Of a stretch of 41,834 bases of DNA, positions 272 to 32,947 are shown one piece after another. How positions within the stretch are numbered: position 1 is the stretch's first letter; every line of letters starts with the position of its first letter. Source of the stretch: an uncultured Verrucomicrobia subdivision 3 bacterium (GTDB taxonomy: Bacteria > Verrucomicrobiota > Verrucomicrobiia > Limisphaerales > UBA11358); contig CAIQWB010000086.1 in the NCBI GenBank assembly GCA_903875465.1, positions 1 through 41,834 on the forward strand, given 5' to 3'. The translations under genes were made by a program, and so were the position numbers. Below the pieces are notes generated by a model. The model had not been told where the DNA came from and did no database searches. It saw nothing but the letters and a program-made list of their open reading frames with translations.

Positions 272-1051
272 TTAATCATGGGACGGAGGCAGCATCGGGG
301 GACAAAAAGCCGGCGGCAACGAAGCGGGCTCATCCTTCAGTTGGACACCACTCAACTGGCGCTGGCGGGCCTCGGCCAGCAACTGCCGCAACTTGGCGGC
401 AGCCAGGCTGGGGGCGAGGCCGGCGGGTCGGATGTTGGAAAGACAATTCCGGTCGGCATCGGTCTTGCCGGGTCGTGGGTGGTAGGTGAAATACGCCCCC
501 AAACTGTCCGGAGAACCCAGGCCAGGGCGTTCGCCGAGCAGGATGAGGCTTAAGGTGGCATTTAAAAGGCCCCCGACTTCGTCCTGCACCGCCACGCGGG
601 CATTGGCGAGAATCACCAGGGGAGCGATTTGCCAGCCCGCCGCGAGCAGACTGGGTAACAAGTCGCTTAATACTGGCTGGGCCTGGCGTTGCAGCGCCAG
701 CGGCGACAACCCATCAGAAAGCAGGATCACCAGGTCCCAAGCGGGTTTGCCAGGAAGGCCGGCCAGCTTTTCCCGCGAGGGTTCACTGAGGCTCCGCCCC
801 AGCTCGGGACGCTGCAAATAGGTTCGGCGGTCAGGTGCCTTGGTACTCAGGATCATGGAGGGCAGGGGCAGGCTGGATAATTCATCGGCGAGGCTGGCCG
901 GGTCAAAGGGCGCATAAACTGCGTCGCGGGCCCGCGCCAGGTCGAGTTGGAAAGCCAGGCGGTCGCGGGTCGTCAGGCTGGCGCCGGCACGGCCCAGCGC
1001 AATCCGCGCGGTCGTAAACGCTCGCCATGGGCTGAGGGGATCCGGCGTCAT
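272..1051 (-). CDS. eutC: Ethanolamine ammonia-lyase small subunit EutC
   Basis: Light subunit (259 aa) of the adenosylcobalamin-dependent enzyme that splits ethanolamine into acetaldehyde and ammonia; with EutB it forms the B12-binding site. Recognisable EutC blocks are DLVILLSDGLSPLA (mid-protein), the ILANARVAVQDEVG segment and the C-terminal DADRNCLSNIRPAGL stretch. I start it at the ATG whose last bases overlap the eutB stop (ATGA), which gives MTPDPLSPWRAF. The frame is open 37 codons further upstream, but that part lies inside eutB. The protein is shorter than the ~295-aa enterobacterial form because it lacks the N-terminal extension, as in many non-enteric homologues. It is translationally coupled to eutB. 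Confidence 0.93.
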   Translation of the reverse strand: MTPDPLSPWRAFTTARIALGRAGASLTTRDRLAFQLDLARARDAVYAPFDPASLADELSSLPLPSMILSTKAPDRRTYLQRPELGRSLSEPSREKLAGLPGKPAWDLVILLSDGLSPLALQRQAQPVLSDLLPSLLAAGWQIAPLVILANARVAVQDEVGGLLNATLSLILLGERPGLGSPDSLGAYFTYHPRPGKTDADRNCLSNIRPAGLAPSLAAAKLRQLLAEARQRQLSGVQLKDEPASLPPAFCPPMLPPSHD

Positions 1052-2451
1052 GCTGCGGGCAGTGGGAGTTGTTCCAGGAAGCGCTGCGTGAGTTGCTCCA
1101 TCCGGGCGGGGCGGGTGGGCAGCCGGTTTTGGGAATCCAGAATGCCCATGCTGGCCAGCCATTGCGCAAACTCCGGCGCCGGCTGGAGGCCCAGCACCTG
1201 GCGCAGATAATGGCTGTCATGAAAGGAGGTGGACTGGTAATTCAGCATGATGTCGTCCGCCCCGGGGACGCCCATGATGAAATTGCAACCCGCCACCCCC
1301 AGCAAGGTGAGCAGGTTGTCCAGGTCATCCTGATCCGCTTCCGCATGACTCGTGGCGCAGACGTCGCATCCCATGGGCAGGCCGAGCAGTTTGCCGCAAA
1401 AATGATCTTCCAAACCCGCGCGGATGATTTGTTTGCCGTCATACAAATATTCCGGGCCGATGAAGCCCACCACTGTGTTGACCAGCAATGGCGAAAATTC
1501 CCGGGCCACCGCGTAAGCGCGCGCTTCCAGCGTTTGCTGATCGCAACCGTGATGAGCCGCGGCCGAGAGGCAGGAGCCCTGGCCCGTTTCGAAATACATG
1601 ACATTATCCCCCACGGTGCCCCGCCGGAGGGCCAGCGCCATTTCCCGCGCTTCCCGGAGGAGGGCGAGGTTGATGCCAAAACTCTGATTGGCGGCCTCGG
1701 TTCCCGCGATGGATTGGAAGACCAGGTCCACCGGTTCACCCCGGGCCATGCATTGCATGGTGGTGGTCACATGCGCGAGCACACACGATTGGGTGGGCAT
1801 GGCAAATTCCGTCCGCAACCGGTCCATCAGCCGTAACAGCTGGGCACAGGCTGCCGGATTATCGCTGGCCGGATTAATCCCGATGACCGCATCCCCGCAG
1901 CCATAGAGCAGGCCCTCCAGAATCGAGGCGGCAATTCCCTGCGGATCATCGGTGGGGTGGTTGGGTTGCAGGCGCACACTCAGGCGTCCGGGCAAGCCGA
2001 GGGTGTTGCGAAAGCGCGTCACCACCCGGATTTTGGCCGCGACCAGGATCAAGTCCTGATTGCTCATGAGCTTGCTCACGGCAGCCACCATCTCCGGGGT
2101 GAGCCCGCGGGCGACCCGGGTTAACAAGGCTCCATCCGTGGCATAATCGAGCAGCCAGTCGCGGAACCCACCCACCGTCAGCCCCGCCACGGGGGCAAAG
2201 GCGGTGCGGTCGTGCGTGTCCAGGATCAACCGGGTGACTTCATCCGCATCATAGGGCACGGCGGGTTCTTCCAAGCAGGCGGCGAGGGGCACCTCGGCCA
2301 GGCACATTTGGGCGGCCACCCGTTCCTCGGCGGAGCGGGCGGCGGTGCCCGCCAGTTGGTCGCCCGAACGCAGGGGCGAGGCCCGCCCCAGCAGCACGCG
2401 CAAACTGGGAAACGTGTAATGCAGGCCACTGGACTTGATGCCGTATTTCAT
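1048..2451 (-). CDS. eutB: Ethanolamine ammonia-lyase large subunit EutB
   Basis: Catalytic TIM-barrel subunit (467 aa; E. coli EutB is ~453) of ethanolamine ammonia-lyase. Family blocks visible include the N-terminal GLHYTFPSLRVLLGRASPLR, NPASDNPAACAQLLRLMD, the FETGQGSCLSAAAHHGCDQQ region and the C-terminal MGVPGADDIMLNYQSTSFHD. The start is set at MKYGIKSSGLHY; the frame remains open 60 codons upstream, but that part is Pro/Arg-rich and unlike EutB. It is followed by eutC with an ATGA overlap. No shell, reactivase (eutA), aldehyde dehydrogenase or transporter gene is adjacent within the window, so the two subunits form a minimal operon. I found no cobalamin-riboswitch B12 box upstream. Confidence 0.95.
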   Translation of the reverse strand: MKYGIKSSGLHYTFPSLRVLLGRASPLRSGDQLAGTAARSAEERVAAQMCLAEVPLAACLEEPAVPYDADEVTRLILDTHDRTAFAPVAGLTVGGFRDWLLDYATDGALLTRVARGLTPEMVAAVSKLMSNQDLILVAAKIRVVTRFRNTLGLPGRLSVRLQPNHPTDDPQGIAASILEGLLYGCGDAVIGINPASDNPAACAQLLRLMDRLRTEFAMPTQSCVLAHVTTTMQCMARGEPVDLVFQSIAGTEAANQSFGINLALLREAREMALALRRGTVGDNVMYFETGQGSCLSAAAHHGCDQQTLEARAYAVAREFSPLLVNTVVGFIGPEYLYDGKQIIRAGLEDHFCGKLLGLPMGCDVCATSHAEADQDDLDNLLTLLGVAGCNFIMGVPGADDIMLNYQSTSFHDSHYLRQVLGLQPAPEFAQWLASMGILDSQNRLPTRPARMEQLTQRFLEQLPLPAA

Positions 2452-2587
2452 CGTTTTGCCGACCGGAAAGTAAACGCCACGCCAGCCATTGCAAGGGGGA
2501 ACTTGACGCGCCAGCCATCCGCGCCGGTTGCTCTGGTGCCGCAGGCCGGGTGGAGGAGGCAAAAATTTAACTGACTGCCCGCCACCA

Positions 2588-2950
2588 CCTGGAGCGCGGC
2601 GTTCACGCCGCCTCAACCTCCAAATCGCCAAATCCCGTTAGATCTCCTTTCCACCACCGGCCGCGTCCCCGTCCCAGTCGCGTAGCGACTTCCCGATGGT
2701 AGCCGTGCGGCTTCAGCCCACGGCACCGGTTCCCAAGCCACCCTTTGCGTCGCGTAGCGAAGCCTGACTAGGGCACAAAGGGTTTATCCCGAACTCCGCA
2801 CCAGAACCGGGAGCGCGCCCGCCCCGGGCGCCGTTTTCCGTGCCCTCGCGGAAAACCTCAGACGCACTGAATCGCCCGCTGCCTGCGCTTACCGTCGCGC
2901 GACCAAATGGCTGGCGGCGCGGGTGCCTCCCGCGCCCCCCGGGGCGGGCG
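2588..2950. repeat. Cluster of short extragenic palindromes (REP-like block)
   Basis: This gene-free stretch is dense in small inverted repeats: a 6-bp stem with TTCA loop at 2596-2611; AGTCGC-GTA-GCGACT at 2676-2690; AGCCG-TG-CGGCT at 2701-2712; an 8-bp stem 2741-2748/2776-2783 enclosing TCGC-GTA-GCGA at 2751-2761; an 8-bp stem 2833-2840/2849-2856; and long arms 2816-2828/2938-2950. The 11-mer TCGCGTAGCGA occurs twice, 73 nt apart. No ORF here looks coding. The pattern resembles REP/BIME elements scattered in Verrucomicrobia genomes (inference). The next ~340 nt (2951-3290) are A/T-richer and show nothing I can name. Confidence 0.5.
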
Positions 2951-3292
2951 TTCTTCTCGACTTCGCATTTAACAGTGAAAATATTTTAAATTTGGGCCGA
3001 AAATAGTTCAATTTCAAGTGGGGCAAATAGCATGGCCAGCTATAATCGGGAATCATTTAACTGAACTTAAATGAAATTGCCGGTGAGGCTTAATGAATCG
3101 CACATTTTAAATTGATGCTGTTTGCATGAGGCCGCCGTCCCCTCTTATCTCTAACGGGTTGGCGGCGGGGTACACGGCACTGTGTGCCGCGTTAATATCC
3201 GGGGTCCTTGCGGGACGAGCAATTGACGCTTGAACCGGCCCCCAGCCGCCCGGCAAATGTTGCTCGTTGCTGGTAATTATTGCGCACCAATT

Positions 3293-3308
3293 TTACAAAA
3301 CCATGACA
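3293..3308 (+). promoter_or_regulatory. Direct-repeat box upstream of the kinase/regulator operon
   Basis: TTACA and TGACA half-sites lie exactly 11 bp apart (3293 and 3304), the spacing used by OmpR/PhoB-family regulators. The flanking sequence CAATTTTnCAAAAnCATGACAACT recurs almost identically upstream of the ankyrin gene (6532-6547). A -10-like GATAGT sits at 3318-3323. Either the adjacent regulator or PhoB could bind; binding is inference. Confidence 0.45.
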
Positions 3309-3381
3309 ACTAAACCTGATAGTCTGGCACACTTCGGAGTAATGAAAGCGACAAACATTCTGGGCCAACGACAAACTCCTC

Positions 3382-5862
3382 ATGGGTAACGGACCTGGCA
3401 TGGCAATTTTGATTCTATTGCTGATTTTTCTGGTGGCGCTGCTTTTGGGCCGGCGGCGGGGGTGGCAGCGTAGCGCCGACTTGCAATCGATCTACACCCG
3501 GTCGCGGGCGCTGTGCCTTCTCTATGCCATACTGATTCCGCTCATGGTGGTGGCGGCCCTTCAACGGCATGACCAGCCCCCCTTCGAAAAATTCTTTTCC
3601 CCAGGCTGCTTTACCCTGGTGTTCGGAATTTTCTTTTTTCAATTCTTGCAGGCGCGGCGTAAAATGCCGTCGCAGCCTGGTTTTACCGGAAAAGTCTTCG
3701 ATCGATCGACCCTCAGGCTGCTCGGCCAGGCTGCTTTCATTTTGTTGCCGGTGCTCGGGCTGGCCGGGTTTGGATTGTATTCACTGCGCCAGGACCGGCT
3801 GCTCGCAGAACAGGAAGCGCATGACGCCGGTCAAATTGTGTCCCGGCAACTGGCCCAGGCCATTGGCACACGAACCCCGGCCCATTGGCGCGATTACCGG
3901 GAAGCGAGTTTTGCACTCCATGCCAACCGGTCGGCCGATTTGGGGCTGTCAAGTTGGGCCGGCGGCGCACCCGCCGAAACCAACGCATGGCTTCGCATCC
4001 AGGCTTGGCAGCAGGCCAATCCGGAAATTGATTTGACCAATCTCCCCCCCGCCGATCCGAGCAGTTATGTGGAGACTCAGCCAGAAATGATGCCGCCGCA
4101 ACCACCTGAGTGGCTGGGGCAGTTAAATCCCGAACAACAAAAGCTTTGGCAGTGCGTGAAGCAGGCAGCATTCCAAGTGGATGATTTTTCCGCCGTGCAG
4201 TCTGCCATTCAAACGTTTATGGCCTCCCATCCCCCCAAAGGCGCGCGGGCGAATGCGGAGTATTTGCGGTTGCTGGCAAATATCCGCGGGATGACCGCTA
4301 CGGGGGCCGTGTCCCAAATTGCCGAATTCACCCGAACGCACTGGGGTGATTCAACGGAATCCACGGATGCCGGATTGCCGTTGGGGCAATTGGTTTGTTA
4401 TCAAGCCTTACATCGCCTGCCGGACGGGGCGGGGTTGCCGCCGAATTTCATCACCTTCCATACCATCGCTTGGATGATTCAATACCGTGCCTCAGTTTTT
4501 TCCCCCAGGCTGGTTGCAGAAGCGGAGCGGGTCGCGCGCGGCACCGCGTCGGAGCAATATGTGGCGACGTTGAAACACTGGTGCAATGCCAATAGTGCCG
4601 CGCGCATTGTATTGCAGGACTTTCGCGAACAACATCCCCCTGCCACTTGGACGAATGCACCGTTTTGGGTTGATTCCCGCATCGGAAAATATCTGCTGAT
4701 TTTGGGGGACCGGTGTTTGGCACCCACCAATTGGGTGGTCCCATCAGCACCGCGCTATCTTTACCTCATGCTGCCGCAGGTCGTGGTGGAAACAGCGCTT
4801 GGCGCCGCCGTGAAAGATTCGGAAATCTGGCTCCCGCCCTACGCGAAGATGGAATTTGATTTTGGTGATCAGCCCATCAGTTTGTCCCCCGGGCTCGCCG
4901 CCGACTGTGAAAACCGGGCTTTGCCGCTGCTCGGCCAGGCCGGCGGCATTTTAAAAGACCTTCCACTCAGCCAGCACGCATATCCATTTCGTATCCGGGT
5001 TTTATTAGCCAACCCGGAAATTCTGTACGCACGCCAGGCGCAGCGCAGTCGGGGGGTTGGCGCCCTGATTATCGCCTCGGCGCTCGCGGCGGTGATGGGC
5101 CTGTTCTCCGCCTGGCGTTCCTTTCGCCGTGAACAACGCCTCAACCAGCTGAAGACTGACTTTGTTTCCAGTGTTTCCCACGAGCTGCGTGCGCCCATTG
5201 CCTCCGTGCGGCTGATGGCGGAAAATCTGGCGGGTGATAAAATCCCGGAACCGGAAAAACAGCAGGAATACTTCCGCTTCATCGGCCAGGAATGCCGGCG
5301 GCTCTCGTCGCTGATTGAAAACGTGCTGGATTTTTCGCGCATTGAACAGGGCCGCAAACAATACGAATTTGAGCCCACCGAGCTGGTGTCGCTGACCCAG
5401 ACCACCGTCCAGTTAATGGCCCCCTACGCGGCGGAAAAAGGGGTGCGGTTGGAAATGCAATCAGCCTTGAGGAATCAAAAAATCGAAATGGCTGTGGATG
5501 GGCGCGCCCTGCAACAGGCGCTGATAAACCTGCTGGACAATGCCATCAAACATTCCGGCCAGGGCCAGACCGTTGCCATTGCCATCGAGTCCGGCAGCCA
5601 GGGCTGTTTCAATCTGTCGGTCAGCGACTGCGGTCCCGGTATTCCACAGGGGGAGCACGAGCGGATTTTTGAGCGGTTTTACCGGCTTGGCTCCGAATTG
5701 CGCCGGGAAACCCAGGGCATCGGCATTGGTTTAAGCATCGTGAAACATATCGTTGCCGCGCACGGCGGACGCGTGACGGTGGCCAGCGAACCCGGCCAGG
5801 GCTGCCGGTTTACCATCATCCTGCCCGCAAAACATAATCATGGAACGCATTTTGATCATTGA
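3382..5862 (+). CDS. Membrane sensor histidine kinase with a large extracytoplasmic domain
   Basis: Sensor kinase of 826 aa. The N-terminus carries three to four hydrophobic helices (residues ~7-25, 37-55, 65-85, 108-130). A ~420-residue extracytoplasmic region of no recognised family follows, then a last helix (GALIIASALAAVMGLFSAW) and a HisKA/HATPase core. The phosphoacceptor is H600 in SSVSHELRAPIAS. The N box is NLLDNAIKH (N720), the G1 box DCGPGIP, and the G2 region GIGIGLSIVKHI. The ORF overlaps the response-regulator gene downstream by 23 nt, so the pair is co-transcribed and probably coupled. The ATG at 3400 (MAILILLL) is an alternative start. The signal sensed is unknown. Confidence 0.88.
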   Translation: MGNGPGMAILILLLIFLVALLLGRRRGWQRSADLQSIYTRSRALCLLYAILIPLMVVAALQRHDQPPFEKFFSPGCFTLVFGIFFFQFLQARRKMPSQPGFTGKVFDRSTLRLLGQAAFILLPVLGLAGFGLYSLRQDRLLAEQEAHDAGQIVSRQLAQAIGTRTPAHWRDYREASFALHANRSADLGLSSWAGGAPAETNAWLRIQAWQQANPEIDLTNLPPADPSSYVETQPEMMPPQPPEWLGQLNPEQQKLWQCVKQAAFQVDDFSAVQSAIQTFMASHPPKGARANAEYLRLLANIRGMTATGAVSQIAEFTRTHWGDSTESTDAGLPLGQLVCYQALHRLPDGAGLPPNFITFHTIAWMIQYRASVFSPRLVAEAERVARGTASEQYVATLKHWCNANSAARIVLQDFREQHPPATWTNAPFWVDSRIGKYLLILGDRCLAPTNWVVPSAPRYLYLMLPQVVVETALGAAVKDSEIWLPPYAKMEFDFGDQPISLSPGLAADCENRALPLLGQAGGILKDLPLSQHAYPFRIRVLLANPEILYARQAQRSRGVGALIIASALAAVMGLFSAWRSFRREQRLNQLKTDFVSSVSHELRAPIASVRLMAENLAGDKIPEPEKQQEYFRFIGQECRRLSSLIENVLDFSRIEQGRKQYEFEPTELVSLTQTTVQLMAPYAAEKGVRLEMQSALRNQKIEMAVDGRALQQALINLLDNAIKHSGQGQTVAIAIESGSQGCFNLSVSDCGPGIPQGEHERIFERFYRLGSELRRETQGIGIGLSIVKHIVAAHGGRVTVASEPGQGCRFTIILPAKHNHGTHFDH

Positions 5863-6520
5863 GGACGAAGCGCCCATGCGCACCGCGTTGGCGGATCTGC
5901 TGACGGCGGAAGGCTACCGGACCCTGACCGCGGCTGATGGGGAGAGTGGGCTCAAGCGGGCCCTTGCCGAAAAACCCGACCTGATCCTGTTGGACGTGAT
6001 GATGCCCAAGCTCGACGGATTTGCGGTTTGCTCTGAGCTGCGCCGGCTGGCTCACGAAGTGCCGGTGATGCTGCTCACCGCCAAGGGCCAGATTGAAGAT
6101 CGCGTCCATGGGCTGGATGTGGGCGCGGATGATTATGTCATCAAACCGTTCAGCAGCGAAGAACTGCTCGCCCGGGTGCGTGCCCTGCTGCGGCGGGTCG
6201 AGCGGAAAGCCAGGGCCCTCACGCAGCTGAAATTGGGGGAAATTGAAATTGATCTGGCGCGGCAAATCGCCACGCGCGGCCGGCAGCCGGTTCACCTGAC
6301 CGCCAAGGAGTTTGCCATGTTGCGGCTCCTGGCCGAAGCCGCAGGCGAACCCGTTTCCCGCGAACGCTTTCTCGACGTGGTCTGGGGTTATGGGGCGTTC
6401 CCGACGACCCGCACGGTGGACAATCATATTGCCAGCCTGCGCGCCAAGCTCGAATCCGATCCGGATTCGCCGCGCTGGATCAAAACCGTGCATGGCGTGG
6501 GGTATAAACTTGAACCCTGA
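5840..6520 (+). CDS. OmpR/PhoB-family response regulator
   Basis: 226-aa DNA-binding response regulator and cognate partner of the upstream kinase. The receiver domain (1-118) has the acidic pair E8/D9, phosphoacceptor D52 (LILLDVMMPKLDG), T80 and K102 (IKPFSSEE). A winged-helix output domain (~130-226) ends in the typical TRTVDNHIASLRAKL and KTVHGVGYKLEP. The start codon lies inside the kinase gene. The operon carries an 11-bp-spaced direct-repeat box upstream of the kinase and a near-copy directly after this gene, upstream of the ankyrin gene, so autoregulation and control of that neighbour are plausible (inference). Confidence 0.93.
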   Translation: MERILIIEDEAPMRTALADLLTAEGYRTLTAADGESGLKRALAEKPDLILLDVMMPKLDGFAVCSELRRLAHEVPVMLLTAKGQIEDRVHGLDVGADDYVIKPFSSEELLARVRALLRRVERKARALTQLKLGEIEIDLARQIATRGRQPVHLTAKEFAMLRLLAEAAGEPVSRERFLDVVWGYGAFPTTRTVDNHIASLRAKLESDPDSPRWIKTVHGVGYKLEP

Positions 6521-6531
6521 GCCCGCCAATT

Positions 6532-6547
6532 TTGCAAAAGCATGACA
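6532..6547 (+). promoter_or_regulatory. Direct-repeat box upstream of the ankyrin-SLBB gene
   Basis: TTGCA (6532) and TGACA (6543) half-sites are 11 bp apart within a ~24-bp stretch nearly identical to that at 3287-3311. It lies 12 nt after the regulator stop codon and 42 nt before the ankyrin start. A TATAAA at 6581-6586 could be a -10 or simply A/T-rich leader. Confidence 0.45.
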
Positions 6548-6588
6548 ACTGGAGCCAGGCGGATTTGGCACCCTGAAATTATAAAAAT

Positions 6589-9108
6589 ATGAAACTGACA
6601 TCGGGCATTTTTATCATAGTGCTGTGGTCGCTGGTGGCGACTGCCCAGACGAACAACCTGACCGCGCTCCTGCAACAGGGTTTGTTCGAGGAACAAGCCA
6701 GTCGCAACCTGGACGCGGCCATCGCCAGTTACCAGTCGCTGGCCCGGCAGTATGACCAGGACCGGCAGCTCGCGGCCACGGCCGTATTCCGGCTTGGCGA
6801 ATGCTACCGCGCGCAGGGCAAGACCAACGAGGCCACCGCGCAATATCAGCGCATTCTCCACGAATTTTCGGACCAAGCCACCCTCGCGGCCTTGAGCCGG
6901 CAGAATCTGGCGGGGATGGGATTGATGGAAAAGGCATCCGGGGTGGCCGACACCGCCAGCTTGCCAATCAATTCATCTGCGGATACCAGTTCCGAGGAAG
7001 ATCAGGAAATTGCCCGGCTTAAACAGATGATCCAGAACAGCCCTGACCTCATCAACCGGGCCACCAGTGACAATGGCACACCGCTTTTCAGTGCCGCCCG
7101 CAAGGATCAATTGCGCGTGGCGGCGTTTTTGTTGGATCATGGAGCCGATATCAACGCGCCGGCGGGCACCCATGGGAAAATCTGGGACATTTGGACCCCA
7201 CTGGAAGCAGCCGCGGATTCCGGCCACAAAGCCATGACGGAACTGCTGTTGCGCCACGGTGCCGATGTGAACACAAAAGATGTCCTTGACGGCACGGCCT
7301 TGCACCAGGCTGCCTTGCATGGCTTTCAGTCGGTAATCGAAGTGCTTTTGGCCGGGCATGCCGATGTCAATGCCCTGAACATTTCCAGAACGACGCCTTT
7401 GTTTAATGCTGTTCAGAGCGGTAATGTCAATATCGTGAAGCTGCTGCTGGACGCCGGGGCCAACGCGAACCTTAAGGATGGCCAGGGACGAACGGTGCTG
7501 AATTACGCCATTGGAACATCGCCACAAATCATCCGGGCACTCTTGGTGGCGGGAGCAAATCCGAACACGGAGGATTCCGCAGGGCGGTCCCCGCTCAGTT
7601 ATGCAGTGGAAAGGAATACTTTAAACGTCGTAAAATTACTTCTCGACGCCAAAGCCGACGCCAACGGCGGACATAAGGACGCTCCTTTGTTAATTGCCAT
7701 TTATAAACACAACCCGGCGGCGGCCGAAATGCTGTTGCAGGCGGGTGCGGACCCTCATTCGAAATCAATGATTGATTGCCCGATGCAGTTTGGAAATGGA
7801 AATTATGCAAATGGCACATCCATCACCCCGTTATTCCTTGGCATCATCCATGGCCAGCTTCCCCTGGTGCAACTGCTGTTGAAATTCAAGGCCGACCCGG
7901 ATGATGCGCAAACGGATGGCCGGGCCGCAATTTTCAGTGCCCTGGGCAATCCGGACATTCTCAAGGCCTTGCTGGATGCCGGCGCCAAGGTGGATGTGGT
8001 GGATGAAACAGATACCAGCCACCCTGACGGGCCGTCGGGAAGCTTCCTATCACGGCTCAATCAAATGAATAATCCCGATCTTAAACGGACACCGCTTTTG
8101 TTTGCCACCGGCGAAAGCAACGTCGTGGCGGTCACGCAATTAATAAATCATGGCGCGAATCCCAATGCGACCGATGGTCGCGCGAATACGGCCCTGCATT
8201 ACGCGGCGATGTGGCTGGCGGACGATCAAGTATTTACGCAGTTGCTGAAGCACCAAGCCAATCCGAACTGGCGGAATATTGACGGCAAAACGCCCCTGGA
8301 TCTGGTCAAAGAGCGATTGGGGATATCCATCCACGGCAGCCGGTTCCTCAACCAGAACCAGTTTGGTGTGACCCAAGGCGAGGTTTCTCCCGCACAAATG
8401 AGTCAGGTCGAAAAATTGATCACCTTGCTGCGGCAGCATGGAGCGCTGGATAATTTGCCCGACTGGGACCGTATCACCATCCGCCGTCCTTCGACCAAAG
8501 CCTCGGTGATAATTTTTCAAAAAGGCACCAACGATTGGAACCATTTCACGTTGTTGGAATTGATTTATTCCGCAAATGAGCGGCTGGATCACTTCCCATT
8601 CCCCGATCTGGCCGGCCTGGTTATTGTGCGCCCGGCCTCGAACGGCCGGGAATTCCGGCGGATTCCGGTGAACCTGCTCAACTCGACCAATGGCGTGGAT
8701 TGTTCTCACGATCAGGCGCTGGAGTTTGGTGATGTGGTGGAAATCCCCGAACGCGAACATTCACTGGCCGAGGGCAATAGGTTTCTCAGCCGGGATGCGG
8801 CAATGACCATTCTGAATCATTTCCGCAACCAGACGAATGAGGCGAAATTAGTCGTGGCTAACCAGCCCGCCATCCAGCTTCCGTTGCAGCCGTTTTTTTG
8901 CGGCATTGGTGAAGTCCTGTCGCGCGGCACGGCCCTCGCCACCCTGACTTCCAGCAGCGATCTTTCGCGGGTAAAGGTCATGCGGCGCGATCCCATAACC
9001 AGGCAGACGGCGACCTGGATGGTTGATTGCCGCAACTTGAACAACCAAGGCACACCCGACCTTTGGCTCCGCAACGGTGATGTGATTGAGGTCCCGGAGA
9101 AACCCTAA
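6589..9108 (+). CDS. Secreted TPR-ankyrin-repeat protein with C-terminal SLBB-like domains
   Basis: 839-aa exported protein. It has a signal peptide (MKLTSGIFIIVLWSLVATAQ), a TPR-like segment (residues ~40-110, AIASYQSLARQYDQ and AVFRLGECYRAQGKTNEA), about eleven ankyrin repeats from ~164 to ~575 (e.g. DGTALHQAALHGF, GRTVLNYAI, LLLDAGANANLKD), then two beta-rich segments (~630-730 and ~755-839). These end in RNGDVIEVPEKP and EFGDVVEIPE, the closing strand typical of SLBB beta-grasp domains of polysaccharide-export-type proteins. Ankyrins bind protein partners; the partner is unknown. The gene directly follows the two-component pair and is preceded by the same box, suggesting it is a regulon member. 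It could be a periplasmic scaffold (inference). Confidence 0.82.
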   Translation: MKLTSGIFIIVLWSLVATAQTNNLTALLQQGLFEEQASRNLDAAIASYQSLARQYDQDRQLAATAVFRLGECYRAQGKTNEATAQYQRILHEFSDQATLAALSRQNLAGMGLMEKASGVADTASLPINSSADTSSEEDQEIARLKQMIQNSPDLINRATSDNGTPLFSAARKDQLRVAAFLLDHGADINAPAGTHGKIWDIWTPLEAAADSGHKAMTELLLRHGADVNTKDVLDGTALHQAALHGFQSVIEVLLAGHADVNALNISRTTPLFNAVQSGNVNIVKLLLDAGANANLKDGQGRTVLNYAIGTSPQIIRALLVAGANPNTEDSAGRSPLSYAVERNTLNVVKLLLDAKADANGGHKDAPLLIAIYKHNPAAAEMLLQAGADPHSKSMIDCPMQFGNGNYANGTSITPLFLGIIHGQLPLVQLLLKFKADPDDAQTDGRAAIFSALGNPDILKALLDAGAKVDVVDETDTSHPDGPSGSFLSRLNQMNNPDLKRTPLLFATGESNVVAVTQLINHGANPNATDGRANTALHYAAMWLADDQVFTQLLKHQANPNWRNIDGKTPLDLVKERLGISIHGSRFLNQNQFGVTQGEVSPAQMSQVEKLITLLRQHGALDNLPDWDRITIRRPSTKASVIIFQKGTNDWNHFTLLELIYSANERLDHFPFPDLAGLVIVRPASNGREFRRIPVNLLNSTNGVDCSHDQALEFGDVVEIPEREHSLAEGNRFLSRDAAMTILNHFRNQTNEAKLVVANQPAIQLPLQPFFCGIGEVLSRGTALATLTSSSDLSRVKVMRRDPITRQTATWMVDCRNLNNQGTPDLWLRNGDVIEVPEKP

Positions 9109-16874: not shown

Positions 16875-18350
16875 ATGAGCACTGAGGACATGCCGGCGCG
16901 GCCGGGTTGGATTGCCGCTTTTCGCAATTGGATCAGCATCGCGGGAATGCTGGTCATCGTGGTGGGAATATTTTCCTTTCTGCTCCTGTTCGGGCTGGAC
17001 CTTATGGCCCACTTCTCGAATCCGTACGTGGGCATCCTGACCTACATGGTAACCCCGGGCGTGGGGGCGGGTGGAATTTTCCTACTGCTACTGGGCGCGT
17101 TTCTCGAACGCCGCCGGACGCCGGACAGGAAATTTTCCTCGGCGGTTAAAATTGATTTTGCCAGTCGCAAGGACCGGAAAACCCTGGGCGTTTTTATTTT
17201 ATGCGGGTTGGTTTTCATTCTGCTGTCGGCCGTGGGTAGCTATCAAACGTTTCATTTCACCGAATCTGTTCAGTTTTGCGGCGAGACTTGTCACACGGTG
17301 ATGGAACCGGAAAACGTAGCTTATCATAATGGTTCACACGCCCGGGTGGCCTGTGTGGAATGCCACATAGGCTCGGGCGCGACGTGGTTTGTCAAATCGA
17401 AGATGTCCGGCTCTTACCAGGTCTATTCCGTGTTTGCGAAGAAATATTCCCGGCCGATTCCCACGCCGGTGAAGAACTTGCGCCCAGCCCAGGACACCTG
17501 CGAGCAATGCCACTGGCCGAAAAAGTTCGTAGGCAATCTAGACCGTACTTACAATTATTTCCTGCCGGATGCCACCAATACGCCCTTTTCCGTCCGTTTG
17601 TTGTTAAAGGTGGGCGGGGCTGATCCTACGCACGGTCCAGTGGGCGGTATTCACTGGCACATGAGCGTGGCCAATAAAATTGAATATTTCGCAAGCGATG
17701 AAGGCCGCCAGAAAATTCCCTATATTCGGGCGACCGATGCGCAAGGGGTCGTCACGGAATACCGTGCCGGGAAGTTTACCAACACCGTCAGCGAAGCCCA
17801 GATGCGGCGGATGGATTGCATGGACTGCCACAACCGGCCCGCGCACAACTTTGTCTCCCCGGTTGACTCGGTAAACCTGGCCATTTCCATCGGGAAAATT
17901 GACCGCAGCATTCCCTGGATTAAAACCAATGCTGTGTGGGTGCTGGCCCAGCATTACACCAACTCCGACGAGGCATTGTCGGCCATCGCCACCAAACTGG
18001 CCGCCCGTTACCCGGGCGAACCCAAGATCCAGGGCGTGATTGGCGCCGTGCAGGAAATATACACCAACAACTTTTTCCCGGCCATGAACACCGACTGGCG
18101 TTCGCATCCGGCCAACCTGGGGCACAAAGATTGGCCGGGCTGTTTCCGCTGCCATGATGGCGAGCACAAATCGGCCGATGGCAAGAAGATTATCCGCGCC
18201 AATGACTGCACGACCTGCCACATCATCCTGGCCCAAGGTTCTGGTGCTGACCTGCTCAACCTGAGCGCGCAAGGCAAAAAATTTGTCCACCCCGGCGATG
18301 AAATTCCTGACGGTTATCTCTGCAGTGATTGCCACAACGGCGGCCCGTAG
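16875..18350 (+). CDS. NapC/NirT-type multihaem membrane cytochrome c (7 haem motifs)
   Basis: 491-aa membrane-anchored cytochrome. Three hydrophobic helices (residues ~17-42, 55-78, 104-124) precede the periplasmic haem domain. Haem sites in order are CGETCH (from C135, a CX3CH spacing), CVECH, CEQCH, CMDCH, CFRCH, CTTCH and CSDCH. The block after the first haem (VMEPENVAYHNGSHARVACVECH) is typical of the NapC/NirT/NrfH quinol-dehydrogenase superfamily, and RPIPTPVKNLRPAQDTCEQCHWP of its longer deltaproteobacterial-type members. It probably oxidises menaquinol or relays electrons from the pool to a periplasmic acceptor. It is followed 19 nt later by the 11-haem/cytochrome b fusion, likely its functional partner. 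Substrate unknown. Confidence 0.88.
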   Translation: MSTEDMPARPGWIAAFRNWISIAGMLVIVVGIFSFLLLFGLDLMAHFSNPYVGILTYMVTPGVGAGGIFLLLLGAFLERRRTPDRKFSSAVKIDFASRKDRKTLGVFILCGLVFILLSAVGSYQTFHFTESVQFCGETCHTVMEPENVAYHNGSHARVACVECHIGSGATWFVKSKMSGSYQVYSVFAKKYSRPIPTPVKNLRPAQDTCEQCHWPKKFVGNLDRTYNYFLPDATNTPFSVRLLLKVGGADPTHGPVGGIHWHMSVANKIEYFASDEGRQKIPYIRATDAQGVVTEYRAGKFTNTVSEAQMRRMDCMDCHNRPAHNFVSPVDSVNLAISIGKIDRSIPWIKTNAVWVLAQHYTNSDEALSAIATKLAARYPGEPKIQGVIGAVQEIYTNNFFPAMNTDWRSHPANLGHKDWPGCFRCHDGEHKSADGKKIIRANDCTTCHIILAQGSGADLLNLSAQGKKFVHPGDEIPDGYLCSDCHNGGP

Positions 18351-18369
18351 TTGTAGTTCCGACCAATTT

Positions 18370-20526
18370 GTGCAGTCAAAAACTCCACCCGCCGCGAGGC
18401 GGGTGGTCACTTCCACAATTATGCTGGCCATCCTCTGGTGGATGGGCCTCAGCGGCACAGCTGCGGAAACGGCGCCGCCCCCCCCGGCCTTTGCCAATCA
18501 AGACTGTCTGGATTGTCATCTGGACCCGACGACGACCCGCATGGTTAATGGGAAAAAAGTCGCCCTTTTATTTCCCACCAACCAGTTCCGCGTTTCGGTT
18601 CATGCCAAATTGAATTGCGTGGACTGTCATAATGGCATCAAGGATCTGGTGCATCCGAGCAAACTGCCTGCGCCCAATTGTGCGGGGTGCCATGTCCAGG
18701 AAGGCAAGGATTACACCGGCAGCATTCACGGGGTCAGTCATGCTATGGGCGCCTCGGGGGCGGCGAATTGCTGGGATTGCCATGGTTCGCATGGAATATT
18801 GTCCCCAAAAGATCCCGATTCCGCCACTTATAAGCTCAACCTGCCAGCCACCTGCGCGAAATGTCACAGTAATGCGGGGCTTTCCTCTGAATACCGAATG
18901 AAAAACCCGGATGCGGCGGCGCAGTATATGGACAGCGTGCACGGCTTTGCCCTGATAAAAATGGGGTTGATTGTTGCCCCTTCATGCAATGACTGTCATG
19001 GGGTGCATGACATCAAGCGGAGTGTGGACCGGGACGCCCCCATCAACCATGCCAACGTGGCCCGCACCTGTGGCAAATGCCATGTGAACATCGAGAAAAC
19101 TTACGACCAAAGCATCCACGGCCAATTGCTGGCCAAGGGCGACCCCCGCGCGCCCGTTTGCACCGATTGTCACACGCCGCATGACATCGTGACGCCGGAA
19201 CATGGGAATTTCAAGGTGGTCGCCGATGAGCGCTGCGGCAAGTGTCATGCGGACCGTCTGGAACACTACCGTGACACGTATCATGGCAAGGCCATGGCGC
19301 TGGGCAAACCGAACATCGCGCCGGAAGTGGCCGCCTGTTACGATTGCCATGGCCACCATGATGTGTTGCCGCCGGCCGATCCGCGGTCGCATCTTTCCAC
19401 CAACAACATTGTGGCCACCTGCCAGCAATGTCACCCGGGCGCAACGATTGGCTTTACGCAGTACCGGCCCCATGCGAATCCGCTGGATGGCAAAAACTAT
19501 CCCTTGCTGCACGCGGTGTTCCTGGGCATGACTTCGTTGCTGGTGGGCACGCTGCTGTTTTTTGGTGCACATACCGTGGCCTGGCTGGTTCGTGTGACGT
19601 TCCTTTACTGGCACGACTCCAAAAAATTCCGGGAGCAAAAAATAGCGGCGCAAACGGGCGGTGAATGGTTCACTCGTTTTGTCCCCTTTGAGCGGTTCCT
19701 CCATTTCCTGGTGGTAACCAGCTTTTTAACGCTGGTGGTAACTGGCATGCCACTGAAATTTTATTACACCGACTGGGCGAAAGTCATGTTCCACTTCGTG
19801 GGCGGCCCCGAAACCGCGCGGGCCTTTCACCGGCTAGGAGCGGTGGTAACCTTTTGTTATTTTGCTTTGCACTTGTCCTCCCTGGTTTACAAGGGCTTCC
19901 AAGGCCGCTTGCAAGCGTGCGATCCGGTCACCGGGAAGGTCAGTTTCAAGCGTCTGCTGGGCATTGTAGTCAGTCCGGACTGCATGATTCCCAACCTGCA
20001 AGACTGGCGTGATTTTGTTGCCCACAATAAATGGTTTTTTGGAAAAGGGCCCAAACCGGAGTTTGACCGCTGGACCTATTGGGAAAAGTTTGATTATTTC
20101 GCCGTATTCTGGGGCGTGGCCATCATCGGGTTCTCCGGTTTGATCATGTGGTTCCCGGTGGCGTTTACGCAATTCCTGCCGGGTTGGATCATCAACATCG
20201 CGCTGCTGGTGCATTCAGACGAGGCCCTGCTAGCGGCCGGTTTTATCTTCTCCATTCACTTTTTCAACACACACTTCCGCATTGAAAAATTCCCGATGGA
20301 CACGGTCATTTTTTCCGGCCGGATTTCCAAAAATGAAATGCTGCACGAACGCAAGCGGTGGTATGACCGCTTGCTGGCGACCGGTCGCCTGGACGACTAT
20401 CGCGTGCGGGACGAATGGCTGCGCTGGAAAATCATCGCCCGCACCTTTGGCTACCTGTTCTTTGGCCTGGGCATGGTCCTGTTGGTGCTGATCATTTATG
20501 CCATGACCACACGGTTGACTCATTGA
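18370..20526 (+). CDS. 11-haem cytochrome c fused to a cytochrome b domain (CbcL-like architecture)
   Basis: ~718-aa inner-membrane redox protein. The periplasmic N-terminal half holds eleven CXXCH sites (CLDCH, CVDCH, CAGCH, CWDCH, CAKCH, CNDCH, CGKCH, CTDCH, CGKCH, CYDCH, CQQCH). The C-terminal half has about six membrane helices with histidines placed as in hydrogenase/formate-dehydrogenase b-type cytochromes (RFLHFLVV, RAFHRLGAV, FALHLSS, HSDEALL, SIHFFNTHF). This c/b fusion matches the layout of Geobacter CbcL, which has nine c haems. I chose GTG 18370 because it gives a full signal peptide (n-region KTPPAARR, then a hydrophobic stretch ending GTAAETA). ATG 18421 is the alternative and would lose the basic n-region. 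It likely takes electrons from menaquinol across its own haem wire. Confidence 0.88.
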   Translation: MQSKTPPAARRVVTSTIMLAILWWMGLSGTAAETAPPPPAFANQDCLDCHLDPTTTRMVNGKKVALLFPTNQFRVSVHAKLNCVDCHNGIKDLVHPSKLPAPNCAGCHVQEGKDYTGSIHGVSHAMGASGAANCWDCHGSHGILSPKDPDSATYKLNLPATCAKCHSNAGLSSEYRMKNPDAAAQYMDSVHGFALIKMGLIVAPSCNDCHGVHDIKRSVDRDAPINHANVARTCGKCHVNIEKTYDQSIHGQLLAKGDPRAPVCTDCHTPHDIVTPEHGNFKVVADERCGKCHADRLEHYRDTYHGKAMALGKPNIAPEVAACYDCHGHHDVLPPADPRSHLSTNNIVATCQQCHPGATIGFTQYRPHANPLDGKNYPLLHAVFLGMTSLLVGTLLFFGAHTVAWLVRVTFLYWHDSKKFREQKIAAQTGGEWFTRFVPFERFLHFLVVTSFLTLVVTGMPLKFYYTDWAKVMFHFVGGPETARAFHRLGAVVTFCYFALHLSSLVYKGFQGRLQACDPVTGKVSFKRLLGIVVSPDCMIPNLQDWRDFVAHNKWFFGKGPKPEFDRWTYWEKFDYFAVFWGVAIIGFSGLIMWFPVAFTQFLPGWIINIALLVHSDEALLAAGFIFSIHFFNTHFRIEKFPMDTVIFSGRISKNEMLHERKRWYDRLLATGRLDDYRVRDEWLRWKIIARTFGYLFFGLGMVLLVLIIYAMTTRLTH
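18385..18406 (+). other. GCGA-tetraloop hairpin at the cytochrome gene junction
   Basis: A perfect 9-bp stem CCACCCGCC/GGCGGGTGG closes a GNRA-type GCGA loop, 35 nt after the NapC-like stop. No U-tract follows, so an RNA-stability or translation-control element is more likely than a terminator. It is intergenic if the next gene starts at 18421, and inside its first codons if it starts at 18370. Confidence 0.5.
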
Positions 20527-22635: not shown

Positions 22636-23832
22636 TTACTCCGGCTCAATTGGCGTTGGCAATTTATTGCCTGCCGGCAGGGTGAAATAGAAAGTCGTAC
22701 CCTTGCCGACTTCGCTCGCTGCCCACACCTCGCCGCCGTGGCTTTGGATGATGTGTTTGACAATGGACAGGCCCAGGCCGGTTCCACCCTGGTCGCGGGA
22801 GCGTGCCTTATCCACCCGGTAAAAGCGTTCAAACACACGGTCCAGCGCCTCGTTGGGGATCCCCGGGCCATCGTCGTTTACGGACAATTCAATCATCCCA
22901 GAATCCGATTGGCGGCCGCCCACGGTGACGTGCCCCTGGGTGCGGCCATATTTGATGGCATTGTCCACTAGATTGGATAACACTTGGTCCACGCGATTCG
23001 CATCCACTTGGGCCAGAAGGGCTGGGACCTGGTTGGCCAGGGTGGTACCGCGGGCCTCGGCTTTGCCATGCAGATCCGTGAGTACTTTTTCGGCCAGTTG
23101 GTGCATGTCCACGGCGTGCAAATTCAATTTCATCCGGCCGGATTCCAGCGCTGAAATCGTCAGTAAATCTTGAATGAGCAGATCCAATCGCTGGGCGTTG
23201 CGTTCGATGATTTTGAGAAAGCGTTCGGCCACTTCGGGATTGTTGCGCGCCCCATCAAGCAGGGTTTCGACGTAGCCTTTGATCAGGGACAGTGGAGTGC
23301 GTAACTCATGACTCACATTAGCCACAAATTCCTCGCGGGTGCGCTCAAGTTGCTTCAGCCGGGTCAGATCGTGAAAGACCAGGATGGTGCCGTCGCGCCC
23401 GCCCGCGGAATTAAACACTGCGGCCGCATTCACGCGCAGCCAGTGTTCATTGAGGTCAGGCAACTTTAATTCATAATCAAATACCTGGCCATCGTTTTCG
23501 ACGCGCTGGACCAGCGCGTCTAGTTCGGGTACGCGGAGCGCCTCCAAAATGGTTTTTCCACGCAGTTCAGCCTTGAGCTGAAACAAGTGCTTAAAGGCGC
23601 GATTGGCGAGGTAAATGCGCTGGTTCCGGTCCAGCAATAGAAGTCCCTCCAGCATGGAATTGAAGAGCACCTGCTGCTGGGCGTTGGCATCCGTCAAGGT
23701 TTGCTGCTGCCGCCGCTGCAAATCCTCCAAGTCCAGTAAATGTTTGCGTTGCAACCGGCTGAGCAATTGCCGGTGCCGTAAGTGCAAGACCACGAGCGTG
23801 GCCAGTAGCAAAATGGCAAGTGCCGCCCACAT
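22636..23832 (-). CDS. phoR: Phosphate-regulon sensor histidine kinase PhoR
   Basis: 398-aa kinase with a single N-terminal helix (MWAALAILLLATLVVLHL), a coiled-coil stretch (~25-55), a PAS domain (~55-155, LFNSMLEGLLLLDRNQRIYL), then HisKA with H175 (FVANVSHELRTPLS) and HATPase_c (NLVDNAIKYG, DDGPGIP, GTGLGLSIVKHI, GKGTTFYFTLPAG). It lacks an extracytoplasmic sensor domain, as expected for PhoR, which reads the Pst/PhoU state. It starts 2 nt after the phoB stop. The assignment rests on architecture plus the nearby pst-phoU operon and Pho-box-like repeats. Confidence 0.88.
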   Translation of the reverse strand: MWAALAILLLATLVVLHLRHRQLLSRLQRKHLLDLEDLQRRQQQTLTDANAQQQVLFNSMLEGLLLLDRNQRIYLANRAFKHLFQLKAELRGKTILEALRVPELDALVQRVENDGQVFDYELKLPDLNEHWLRVNAAAVFNSAGGRDGTILVFHDLTRLKQLERTREEFVANVSHELRTPLSLIKGYVETLLDGARNNPEVAERFLKIIERNAQRLDLLIQDLLTISALESGRMKLNLHAVDMHQLAEKVLTDLHGKAEARGTTLANQVPALLAQVDANRVDQVLSNLVDNAIKYGRTQGHVTVGGRQSDSGMIELSVNDDGPGIPNEALDRVFERFYRVDKARSRDQGGTGLGLSIVKHIIQSHGGEVWAASEVGKGTTFYFTLPAGNKLPTPIEPE

Positions 23833-23834
23833 GT

Positions 23835-24515
23835 TTATTCAACGAAGCGGTACCCCACGCCCCGGACGGTGTCCAAATGCTTGGAGGCAGGTCCCAGCTT
23901 TTCCCGCAAGCGGCGCATATGGGTGTCCACGGTGCGGGTATCGATCAAACTGTCGTATTCCCAAACATCGCGCAGGAGTTGGTCCCGGGATTGGACCCGG
24001 CCGGCCCGCTGGGCAAGCACGGTAAGGAGCTTGAATTCGGTGGCGGTCAGGTCAAAGGGCTTTTCCCGCCAGCTGGCCAAATGGCGGGGCGTATCGATGG
24101 AGAGATCACCGAAACGCAATAAATTTTCCGGCAATTCACCAGCCTGGCCTCGGGCGAGCAGTTTTTTAATGCGCAAGAGGAGTTCGCGCGTGCTGAAGGG
24201 CTTGGTAAGATAGTCATCCGCGCCGAGTTCAAGCCCCAGCACCCGGTCGATTTCGGCGGCTTTGGCAGTGAGCATGATGATAGGGACCCGCGAGGTGCTG
24301 GCATCCAGGCGCAAGGTTTTGCAGATTTCAAAACCATCCATCTCCGGAAGCATCACATCCAGGACGATTAAATCGGGCACTTGGGAGCGAGCTTTTTTTA
24401 GCGCTTCCGCACCATCCGTGGCCGTGCTGACGGTGTAACCGGATTGTTTCAAATTGAATTCAATCAGTTCCACCGCTTCCGGTTCGTCATCCACCACCAA
24501 AATTCGCGGCTTCAT
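23835..24515 (-). CDS. phoB: Phosphate-regulon response regulator PhoB
   Basis: 226-aa OmpR-family regulator. The receiver domain has D9/D10, phosphoacceptor D53 (LIVLDVMLPEMDG), T83 and K105 (LTKPFSTRE). The winged-helix domain (~130-226) ends in DTRTVDTHMRRLREKL and DTVRGVGYRFVE. The start is set at MKPRILVVDDEPE; an AGGAGG lies only two bases before this ATG, an unusually close Shine-Dalgarno, and the frame stays open 12 codons further up to a TTG. phoR follows 2 nt downstream. Tandem 11-bp repeats 50-75 nt upstream suggest autoregulation by phosphorylated PhoB. Confidence 0.9.
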   Translation of the reverse strand: MKPRILVVDDEPEAVELIEFNLKQSGYTVSTATDGAEALKKARSQVPDLIVLDVMLPEMDGFEICKTLRLDASTSRVPIIMLTAKAAEIDRVLGLELGADDYLTKPFSTRELLLRIKKLLARGQAGELPENLLRFGDLSIDTPRHLASWREKPFDLTATEFKLLTVLAQRAGRVQSRDQLLRDVWEYDSLIDTRTVDTHMRRLREKLGPASKHLDTVRGVGYRFVE

Positions 24516-24563
24516 CACCTCCTGAATAACATGCGCAAAATCGTCACACAATTTCTATTTTGG

Positions 24564-24590
24564 TTACAATTTGGTGACGGTCTGGTTATT
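24564..24590 (-). promoter_or_regulatory. Pho-box-like tandem repeats upstream of phoB
   Basis: Plus-strand units TTACA (24564), TGACG (24575) and TTATT (24586) repeat every 11 bp; in the phoB direction this reads CGTCA-N6-TGTAA. The spacing and orientation match PhoB boxes, and the core is shared with the pstS upstream region. A -10-like TAGAAA follows. The site also lies 40-65 nt upstream of the divergent NAD(P)HX dehydratase gene. Confidence 0.6.
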
Positions 24591-28193: not shown

Positions 28194-28868
28194 CTAATTC
28201 CCAAGAACCGGTCCTTTGGCTCCGGTGTGGCGGATATCCTGGGCTTCGCACAAATAAACCACATCCTCGGCCACGTTGGTGGCGTGGTCCGCAATCCGCT
28301 CCAAGCTTTTGGAGACCACCATCAAGTGCAGACAGCGGCCAACTGACTGAGGATCCTCGGCCATATGCTGAACGAGTATGCGATGGATTTCCTTATTGAG
28401 GGCGTCCACTTGCCGATCCCGGGGAATCAAAGCCCGGGCGGCGACGGAATCCTTTTGCACAAAGGCATCCAGTGACAGTTTAAGCATTTCCAGCGCCAGC
28501 CCCGCCAGCCGGGGAAGGTCCACTTGAAATTTCAAGGGTGGTTCCTGGGCCAGGTCACCAGCACGTTTCGCAATTTTACTCGCCTCATCCCCAATTCGTT
28601 CGAGATTTTGAGCGATTTTCATGGCCACGGTTACCAACCGCAAATCAGTGGCCAACGGCGCTTTGGTAAGCAGGTGAATTACTAATTCGTCAATTTCAAC
28701 CTCCAATTGGTCAATCAGCCGGTCGTCTTCCTTGACGGTCAAGGCCTGCTGATAGTCCCTTTGAACCAGTGCGGCCACCGCCCGGTTTACCGCCGTTTCG
28801 GCATAGCTGGCCATCCGCAGCAGTTTTTGCCGCAATGCATCCAAGCCCATTTCAAAGTGCAGGTCCAT
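28194..28868 (-). CDS. phoU: Phosphate transport system regulator PhoU
   Basis: 224-aa all-helical protein with two three-helix PhoU bundles. Metal/ligand motifs are visible: EDDRLIDQLEVEIDE and AQNLERIGDEASKIA in the first half; RDRQVDALNKEIHR and KSLERIADHATNVAED in the second. It mediates inhibition of PhoR kinase through the Pst transporter when phosphate is plentiful. It is the last gene of the pst operon. I use ATG 28868 (MDLHFEMGLDALRQ); an in-frame TTG at 28892 that overlaps the pstB stop is the alternative. Confidence 0.95.
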   Translation of the reverse strand: MDLHFEMGLDALRQKLLRMASYAETAVNRAVAALVQRDYQQALTVKEDDRLIDQLEVEIDELVIHLLTKAPLATDLRLVTVAMKIAQNLERIGDEASKIAKRAGDLAQEPPLKFQVDLPRLAGLALEMLKLSLDAFVQKDSVAARALIPRDRQVDALNKEIHRILVQHMAEDPQSVGRCLHLMVVSKSLERIADHATNVAEDVVYLCEAQDIRHTGAKGPVLGN

Positions 28869-28888
28869 AGTTGCTTGTTCCGCCGGGC

Positions 28889-29707
28889 TCAACCAAACCG
28901 GCCGGTCACATAATCCTCCGTCTGTTTGCGAGCCGGATTGGTGAAAATTTTGGTGGTGGCATCGTATTCCACCAGCTCACCCAGGTAGAAAAACGCGGTT
29001 TGATCTGAAATGCGCGCCGCCTGCTGCATGTTGTGCGTCACGATCACGATGGTGAAATTTTCCTTCAATTCCAAAATCAGCTCCTCCACCCGGGCGGTGG
29101 CAATCGGGTCCAGGGCGGATGCGGGTTCATCCATTAAGATGATTTCCGGTTTGATGGCAATGGCACGGGCAATGCAGAGGCGCTGCTGCTGGCCACCGGA
29201 CAATCCCAAAGCACTGGCGTGCAAACGGTCTTTCACTTCATCCCATAAAGCCGCTCCCCGCAAACTTTCCTCCACCGACGACTCCAGAGAGGATTTGTCC
29301 CGCATCCCGTGCAAACGCAAACCATAAGCCACATTTTCAAAAATTGATTTCGGAAACGGATTGGATTTTTGAAACACCATGCCCACCCGCTTGCGCAATT
29401 CGATGACATCTACATCGGCTCCATAAATGTCGTGGCCGCCGATTTTCACCGAACCTTCGATCCGAACGTTGTCAATCAGATCGTTCATCCGGTTCAGACA
29501 GCGGAGCAGGGTGGATTTCCCGCAACCGGAAGGGCCAATAAAGGCCGTCACCACCCGTTCACGTAGAGTCAGGGAGATGTTTTTCAGCGCTTTGGTGGCC
29601 CCATAGTAGAGTGCCAGGTTTTCGATGGTGATCAACGGCACGCCACGGGCCGCTGGTGCGGCGTTAACGTCCGTCAGCATCGTCGTTGGCAGGGAAATTT
29701 CCGGCAT
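28889..29707 (-). CDS. pstB: Phosphate ABC transporter ATP-binding protein PstB
   Basis: 272-aa ATPase driving high-affinity phosphate uptake. Walker [11 protein letters not shown]-loop [11 protein letters not shown] (the PstB-typical NPFP), signature LSGGQQQR, Walker [13 protein letters not shown] and the switch His in IVTHNMQQA are all intact. The start is at MPEISLPTT, 7 nt past the pstA stop; the open frame upstream lies in pstA. Confidence 0.97.
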
Positions 29708-29714
29708 AAATGGA

Positions 29715-31837: not shown

Positions 31838-31907
31838 TTTTGATGTGGTGCGGGGGAAACGTTCACTTGCTGGTCAGACGTTTGGCCCGGTTAAATGGTA
31901 AGTTCTC

Positions 31908-32780: not shown

Positions 32781-32947
32781 GTTGTCTCTAAAGAACCAAT
32801 TGCCCAAACAAACTACCAGGTATCGAGGTGGCAAGTCCATTTCCAGGCTGGCCCGACTTGACCGCAAGTCAGTTCTCCGCGCCGTTTATACCTTACTCAT
32901 TAACCAAGCACTTCCTGTGACCACACGGACATTTTGGCCATCCAGAG

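Follow-up and report, generated by a model that had tools for sequence, protein, structure and literature searches.

Which protein reads a 24-bp box that stands twice in contig CAIQWB010000086.1 (assembly GCA_903875465.1) of an uncultured Verrucomicrobia subdivision 3 bacterium? The whole contig of 41,834 nucleotides was analysed and is referred to as the window; the order on its forward strand is box 1, histidine kinase, OmpR/PhoB-type response regulator, box 2 and a gene for a protein with tetratricopeptide repeats (TPR) and ankyrin repeats (Table 1). A first-pass annotation of the window had noticed a near-identical box before both units, had likened its half-sites to those of Pho boxes pointing the opposite way relative to the gene, and had left two options, namely that this regulator controls both units or that PhoB cross-talks with the locus. 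It had called for a genome scan, and had held that the idea would fall if the motif were absent from orthologous loci or belonged to a dispersed repeat. As judged from sequence comparisons, the regulator whose gene lies between the two copies very probably has the box as its operator, and would activate its own operon and one target gene.

A duplicated box at two predicted promoters

The motif, CAATTTTnCAAAAnCATGACAACT, matched the first-pass pattern with 0 mismatches at both places and on the forward strand, although each copy begins one base later than the starts originally given (3287 and 6526); the half-sites, TTACA or TTGCA and TGACA, start 11 bp apart. The two copies are alike over about 30 bases (87%) and constitute one of 27 local direct-repeat families in the window. 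When the genome scan was run on the organism's own assembly (5,317,305 bases in 153 contigs, 96% complete), an 18-base core with up to 2 mismatches was found at exactly these two sites, the core written backwards being matched once as a control. A position model built from the sites of relatives alone (model R1, 30 of their 34 sites, those of L077 and L081 and both of L079 being omitted) ranked the window boxes first, box 2 with 27.5 bits and box 1 with 26.8, followed by a match of 13.9 bits; since neither window site was included in this model, the ranking in the own genome represents a held-out test. A chance origin was rejected on the basis of these scores, about 13 bits above the next, and of 100 shuffles, which yielded 0 matches to the 24-letter pattern.

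Relatives of the kinase sensor were found in 21 of 59 genomes, the own genome included, and the box recurred at both positions of the orthologous loci. With up to 4 mismatches allowed, 19 of the 20 loci from relatives carried it before the kinase (the exception being L077), and 15 of the 16 that could be read there carried it before the target gene (the exception being L081); L065, L070, L082 and L083 end or break before the second box and were excluded from the target-side count. When both strands of these loci and of the window, 21 in all, were searched with at most 2 mismatches, each of the 30 matches fell at one of the two positions. A separate look-up of the kinase sequence in GTDB contigs returned 7 loci, matching in the kinase core, with a tool that may leave out near relatives.

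The 36 sites picked at up to 4 mismatches, of which 6 had 3-4 mismatches and were retained only when holding TGACA or TGACAA, gave the consensus GATTTTRCAAAAnCRTGACAAnT. This is a direct repeat of TTRCAA and TGACAA placed 11 bp apart, the arrangement and period of OmpR/PhoB-family operators; T6, C9, A10 and TGACA (positions 17-21) were invariant in 36/36 sites. Position 14 (window 3301 and 6540) was C in 16/20 kinase-side sites and G in 10/16 target-side sites, a difference that perhaps tunes the two promoters differently. Upstream of the box the information in the aligned sites was about zero, and a dispersed repeat was rejected on this ground, together with the presence of only two copies in the own genome and a likeness confined to about 30 bases.

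Past the box, the most pronounced feature common to kinase-side and target-side sites was a YAnnnT hexamer. It began 41-43 bases from the box start in 34/36 sites, one of the two misses (L078) being cut by the contig end, and occurred elsewhere in 47/2500 site-offsets. If this hexamer is taken as the -10 element and numbered from -12, the centre of the box falls near -40.5 and no good -35 element lies at a spacing of 16-18 bp, where the best candidates across the 34 sites had 3/6 matches or worse; 19/34 of the -10 elements begin with C. A site near -41, a fixed distance to the -10 and a poor -35 are the features of a class II activator-dependent promoter, an assignment made with predicted starts and with the -10 recurring in 8/13 held-out matches (see below). 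Class II boxes are centred at -41.5 in the relevant passage of PMC10936776, and excerpts concerning PhoB describe sites that overlap the -35 (PMC3348028) and a strict spacing between the pho box and the core promoter (PMC10294691). The kinase-side promoters also displayed weaker extra conservation in columns 29-35 and 55-60 (window 3316-3322 and 3342-3347), located between the box and the -10 and just past the predicted start.

The same geometry bears on the sign of the regulation, as the regulator could bind the box and repress both promoters (negative autoregulation). The box overlaps the expected site of sigma region 4, which is compatible with repression too, but its distance to the -10 is fixed within 1 base either way, as activation predicts. 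With no -35 better than 3/6 and more than half of the -10 elements starting with C, the promoters look unable to work unaided, which counts against repression; we consider it unlikely.

Co-occurrence of box and regulator across genomes

Thresholds were set at E <= 0.003 for a strong box, E <= 1e-3 for a kinase match and E <= 1e-85 for a regulator orthologue. Of the 59 genomes, 23 had an orthologue of the kinase or the regulator, and 20 of these contained a strong box, against 0/36 of the remainder (Fisher p = 6e-13); in 18 of the 20 strong-box genomes the box was at the locus itself. The regulator and the N-terminal part of the target occurred in an identical set of 21/59 genomes. In a class-wide sample of 286 genomes, own included, the regulator was detected in 17 and a strong box in 9, corresponding to 7/17 genomes with the regulator under strict filters and 2/269 without it. 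Eleven regulator loci of this sample that had played no earlier part formed a held-out set and were read with a second matrix, made from all 34 sites of relatives and also used for the extra sites: 8/11 carried the box at the expected place, all 13 matches above 13 bits preceded either the aligned kinase or the aligned target, and the -10 was present in 8/13.

The co-occurrence, the recurrence at orthologous positions in several families of the order and the constant spacing from box to -10-like hexamer together indicate this regulator as the probable binder of the box. Control of both units by this regulator, the first option of the earlier annotation, is thereby well supported.

Several observations weigh against this reading. 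The 20/23 count is partly circular, because most of these genomes supplied sites for the model, the own genome and the class-wide sample being the held-out tests; no count represents independent events, because the sequences are related. The six sites with 3-4 mismatches entered the collection by virtue of holding TGACA. In the class-wide sample, strong boxes anywhere in the genome were limited to 7/17 of the regulator genomes, as mentioned above, and that of G043 is not at the locus. Three of the 23 near relatives (G041, G047 and G048) had nothing beyond weaker matches, while the strong match was situated outside the locus in both G043 and G051. No box was found in 3/11 held-out loci (G253, G258 and G216), whose regulators are more distant (62-66% identity), although the relation is not clean, with one weak site in G041 (73%) and two in G139 and G248 (67%). 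The two class-wide genomes with a strong box and no regulator orthologue at threshold (G090 and G151) have no -10 at their matches, and at E <= 0.003 a sample of 286 genomes should contain about 1 match by chance. A loose pattern with up to 2 mismatches matched in at least 55/59 genomes, mostly at scattered single sites, and the backwards control of this pattern also matched many genomes, so only strong matches carry weight. The gene order differs in G048 and G280 (target-kinase-regulator), where the box was seen before the target only. Finally, the box has the polarity opposite to that of Pho-type boxes before phoB in the clade, raising the question of how a tandem dimer would touch RNA polymerase.

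Genome G048 carries the kinase-regulator pair in two copies. Each of its three fetched target-like TPR-ankyrin genes had a box 53-86 bases upstream of the aligned start (L174 position 7114; L175 positions 795 and 2265), a weaker match (E = 0.32) was located 68 bases upstream of a fourth, and a fifth had no listed box, indicating that the box is tied to the target family and not to one stretch of DNA. The sole convincing extra regulon site was G043:C8:70713 (L172 position 1213), a strong box with a -10 at offset 42, as judged by eye, and no obvious gene just downstream; it possibly serves a small RNA or an unannotated gene. The strong match of G051 (G051:C80:6881) was rejected as a regulon member; it lies within a transporter-like reading frame, lacks a -10 on inspection by eye and seems fortuitous. 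Partial box matches were observed in G010:C222, G011:C89 and G026:C210.

Alternative readers of the box

Were the box instead a Pho box bound by PhoB, the locus would belong to the phosphate regulon or be cross-regulated by it. On the minus strand box 1 reads TGTCATGGTTTTGTAA at 3293-3308, a TGTCA-N6-TGTAA element with 1 mismatch to TGTCA-N6-TGTCA, and its half-sites are those of the Pho-type box that precedes pstS in the window, where the pattern matches at 32970-32985; box 2 reads TGTCA-N6-TGCAA, with 2 mismatches, and is outside the 5 window matches of the Pho-type pattern. TGTCA-type half-sites 11 bp apart are present, the regulator is 43% identical to the PhoB of the window, and the two proteins have in common a TRTVDxH..LR recognition-helix pattern. 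The distribution speaks otherwise: a PhoB-like gene was found in 56/59 genomes, yet strong boxes occurred only where the other two-component system does, and since the presence of the box does not follow PhoB or the phosphate genes, the locus does not behave as a member of the Pho regulon. Moreover, a PhoB match was lacking in G031 (69% complete), a genome with the box, the pst and phoB boxes were missing among the 7 matches of the relatives' model in the own genome, and the conserved bases outside the half-sites differ from those of Pho-type boxes. PhoB cross-talk, the second option of the first-pass annotation, thus appears quite improbable.

The reversed geometry described in that annotation was borne out, given that the pstS box reads toward its gene and boxes 1 and 2 are reversed. 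As a clade control, 30 phoB loci (L141-L170) were inspected, of which 24, with boxes that differ from the pattern at 2 positions at most, were used, 3 had weaker boxes only and 3 lacked a phoB start. Tandem TGTCA-type units with an 11-bp period, reading toward the gene, often precede phoB, with YAnnnT at offset 40/41, 51 or 62 in 21/24 loci; the window's own phoB is among the 3/24 without it. By the same count the pair centre is at about -43.5 before phoB vs about -40.5 at the box, a difference of about 3 bp, and the half-sites of the two systems are thus nearly the same but face opposite ways. The polarity reversal may represent a functional difference. In these respects the box resembles the E. 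coli Pho box, described as bound by a response regulator in PMC4415409, and the TGTCA-type units at set distances from YAnnnT before phoB in this clade, but differs in its polarity toward the gene, in its conserved flanks and in its linkage to another regulator.

Recognition of the box as a promoter element by an alternative sigma factor, and not by the regulator, could account for the fixed distance to a -10-like hexamer and for an nTGACA that resembles a -35, though at a spacing of 19-21 bp. This spacing is too long, and neither a direct repeat with an 11-bp period nor co-occurrence with this particular regulator is what such an element would show, which makes the explanation highly improbable. 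The notion that ATGACAACT starts a short leader peptide coupling translation to the downstream gene is barely credible and was rejected: position 16 is A or G in 34/36 sites and the window frames opened by the box ATG end overlapping the kinase and target starts, but the frame is unconserved (7 to >31 codons to the first stop, with downstream peptides that look unrelated by eye), and L077 and L081 carry CTG there while TGACA persists. In some loci (window 6541-6591; L066, L067 and L069) an ATG or GTG within the box shares its reading frame with the target, and automatic gene callers may consequently begin the target inside its own operator.

Genes of the locus and a proposed circuit

For the adjacent regulator as activator, the following course of events is proposed. 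The stimulated kinase would phosphorylate the regulator. Two regulator subunits would then bind to each box in tandem as a dimer, the first at TTRCAA and the second at TGACAA, 11 bp or one turn apart; head-to-tail tandem dimers on direct repeats are described for OmpR/PhoB regulators in excerpts of PMC4832192 and PMC4415409. From its place near -40.5, immediately before a weak -10 without a proper -35, the bound dimer would bring in RNA polymerase in the manner of a class II activator, raising expression of its own kinase-regulator operon (positive autoregulation) and of the neighbouring TPR-ankyrin gene, apparently its main and often only target. The repeat with its conserved place, its near-restriction to this locus, its co-occurrence with the regulator and the constant spacing to a -10-like hexamer come from computation; binding by the regulator, the role of phosphorylation and the activating effect are what we infer.

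A more far-reaching picture is offered tentatively. The kinase, the regulator and one TPR-ankyrin protein may form a closed three-gene circuit that is close to the whole regulon, with class II activation through PhoB-type half-sites of reversed polarity, a dimer facing RNA polymerase opposite to PhoB, and a target that might feed back on the fast-evolving sensor. Mean pairwise identity across 13 loci was 32% for the kinase sensor and 43% for the target vs 76% for the regulator and 69% for the kinase core. A distance-matrix test of sensor-target co-variation over the 13 loci gave a partial correlation of -0.03 (permutation p = 0.59), detecting no co-variation. The regulator alignment omits L073, L081 and L084, with read-out starts that are too long, and the cut loci L065 and L070; the kinase alignment omits L083, and the target alignment L077, L080 and L084.

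SARP regulators, of which AfsR is one, have OmpR-type DNA-binding domains and are not known to carry a receiver domain. The part of PMC10936776 dealing with AfsR describes two 11-bp direct repeats beside a suboptimal promoter, a likeness to the present boxes, but the afs box is centred at -29.5 there and the box here at about -40.5. For response regulators of Desulfovibrio vulgaris, PMC3333781 reports motifs derived from the sequence that precedes orthologous targets in related species, and some regulators with a single target locus, both as here; binding was measured there, whereas the present evidence comes from computation, and the system here joins an OmpR/PhoB-type regulator to a TPR-ankyrin target.

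The regulator has the receiver and the Trans_reg_C winged-helix domain of the OmpR/PhoB family and is 73-84% identical to 13 aligned orthologues. Among the best 25 NCBIfam matches listed for each protein, all below cut-off, the kinase scored closest to PnpS/PhoR-like and the regulator to RpaB/MtrA/PhoB-like models. The PhoB equivalog TIGR02154 separates little, as the regulator scored 200.8 against a cut-off of 296.2 and the PhoB-like regulator of the window, with 244.4, was also below it. The predicted kinase model has a mean pLDDT (predicted local distance difference test) of 80.4, with a confident core that resembles solved kinases; in the N-terminal part 0 Pfam families exceeded the cut-off, and the fold-search rows span mainly the kinase core.

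The target had been labelled an ankyrin-SLBB gene by the first-pass annotation. Its ankyrin part stands, with Pfam matches to ankyrin and also to TPR, a long predicted array and an ankyrin fold at Z = 34.5. The SLBB part found no support in Pfam: for the C-terminal 222 residues there were 0 Pfam families at E <= 5 and 0 sequence matches among PDB chains at E <= 1, and the fold search covered the ankyrin part only.

Just upstream of the kinase, on the minus strand (window 272-2631), are genes for the ethanolamine ammonia-lyase subunits EutC and EutB, transcribed away from it. Two multihaem cytochrome c-type proteins are encoded at 16875-20526, the second with a cytochrome b561-like match slightly under the Pfam cut-off.

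Table 1. Position of the boxes, promoters and genes considered, in window coordinates.
Feature	Position	Strand	Description
Box 1	3288-3311	+	CAATTTTACAAAACCATGACAACT; proposed operator before the kinase-regulator pair; 11-bp direct repeat TTACAA / TGACAA
Predicted -10, kinase-regulator promoter	3328-3333	+	CACACT; predicted start about 3340
Histidine kinase, 826 aa	3382-5862	+	N-terminal helices, fast-evolving sensor, HisKA (PF00512) and HATPase_c (PF02518)
Response regulator, 226 aa, OmpR/PhoB family	5840-6520	+	Response_reg (PF00072, E = 7.8e-32), Trans_reg_C (PF00486, E = 2.4e-27); proposed box binder
Box 2	6527-6550	+	CAATTTTGCAAAAGCATGACAACT; proposed operator before the target gene; 0 mismatches, 27.5 bits
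Predicted -10, target gene	6569-6574	+	CACCCT; predicted start about 6581, very short leader
Target gene, 839-aa TPR and ankyrin-repeat protein	6589-9108	+	Pfam ankyrin and TPR; N-terminus signal-peptide-like (by eye)
PhoR/PhoB-like pair	22636-24551	minus	
Pho-type box upstream of phoB	24562-24579		Reads toward phoB
pstS-pstC-pstA-pstB-phoU-like run	28194-32867	minus	
Pho-type box upstream of pstS	32968-32985		Reads toward pstS

Searches of the open PMC literature on Verrucomicrobia, directed at a response regulator with its binding site and an ankyrin protein or at two-component systems and SLBB, yielded no account of this system, and the 15 titles listed out of 104 in a further search were general ones. 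The operator, the nearly single target and the reversed polarity are the new items, in a system of an otherwise ordinary kind. They supply an operator, a promoter architecture and a target, at the strength of the reading given above, for a two-component system in a poorly studied bacterial order. With PhoB and this regulator present in the same cell, the two constitute a natural pair for the insulation of OmpR/PhoB regulators that use near-identical half-sites, and the locus allows asking whether an operator still functions when its polarity is reversed.

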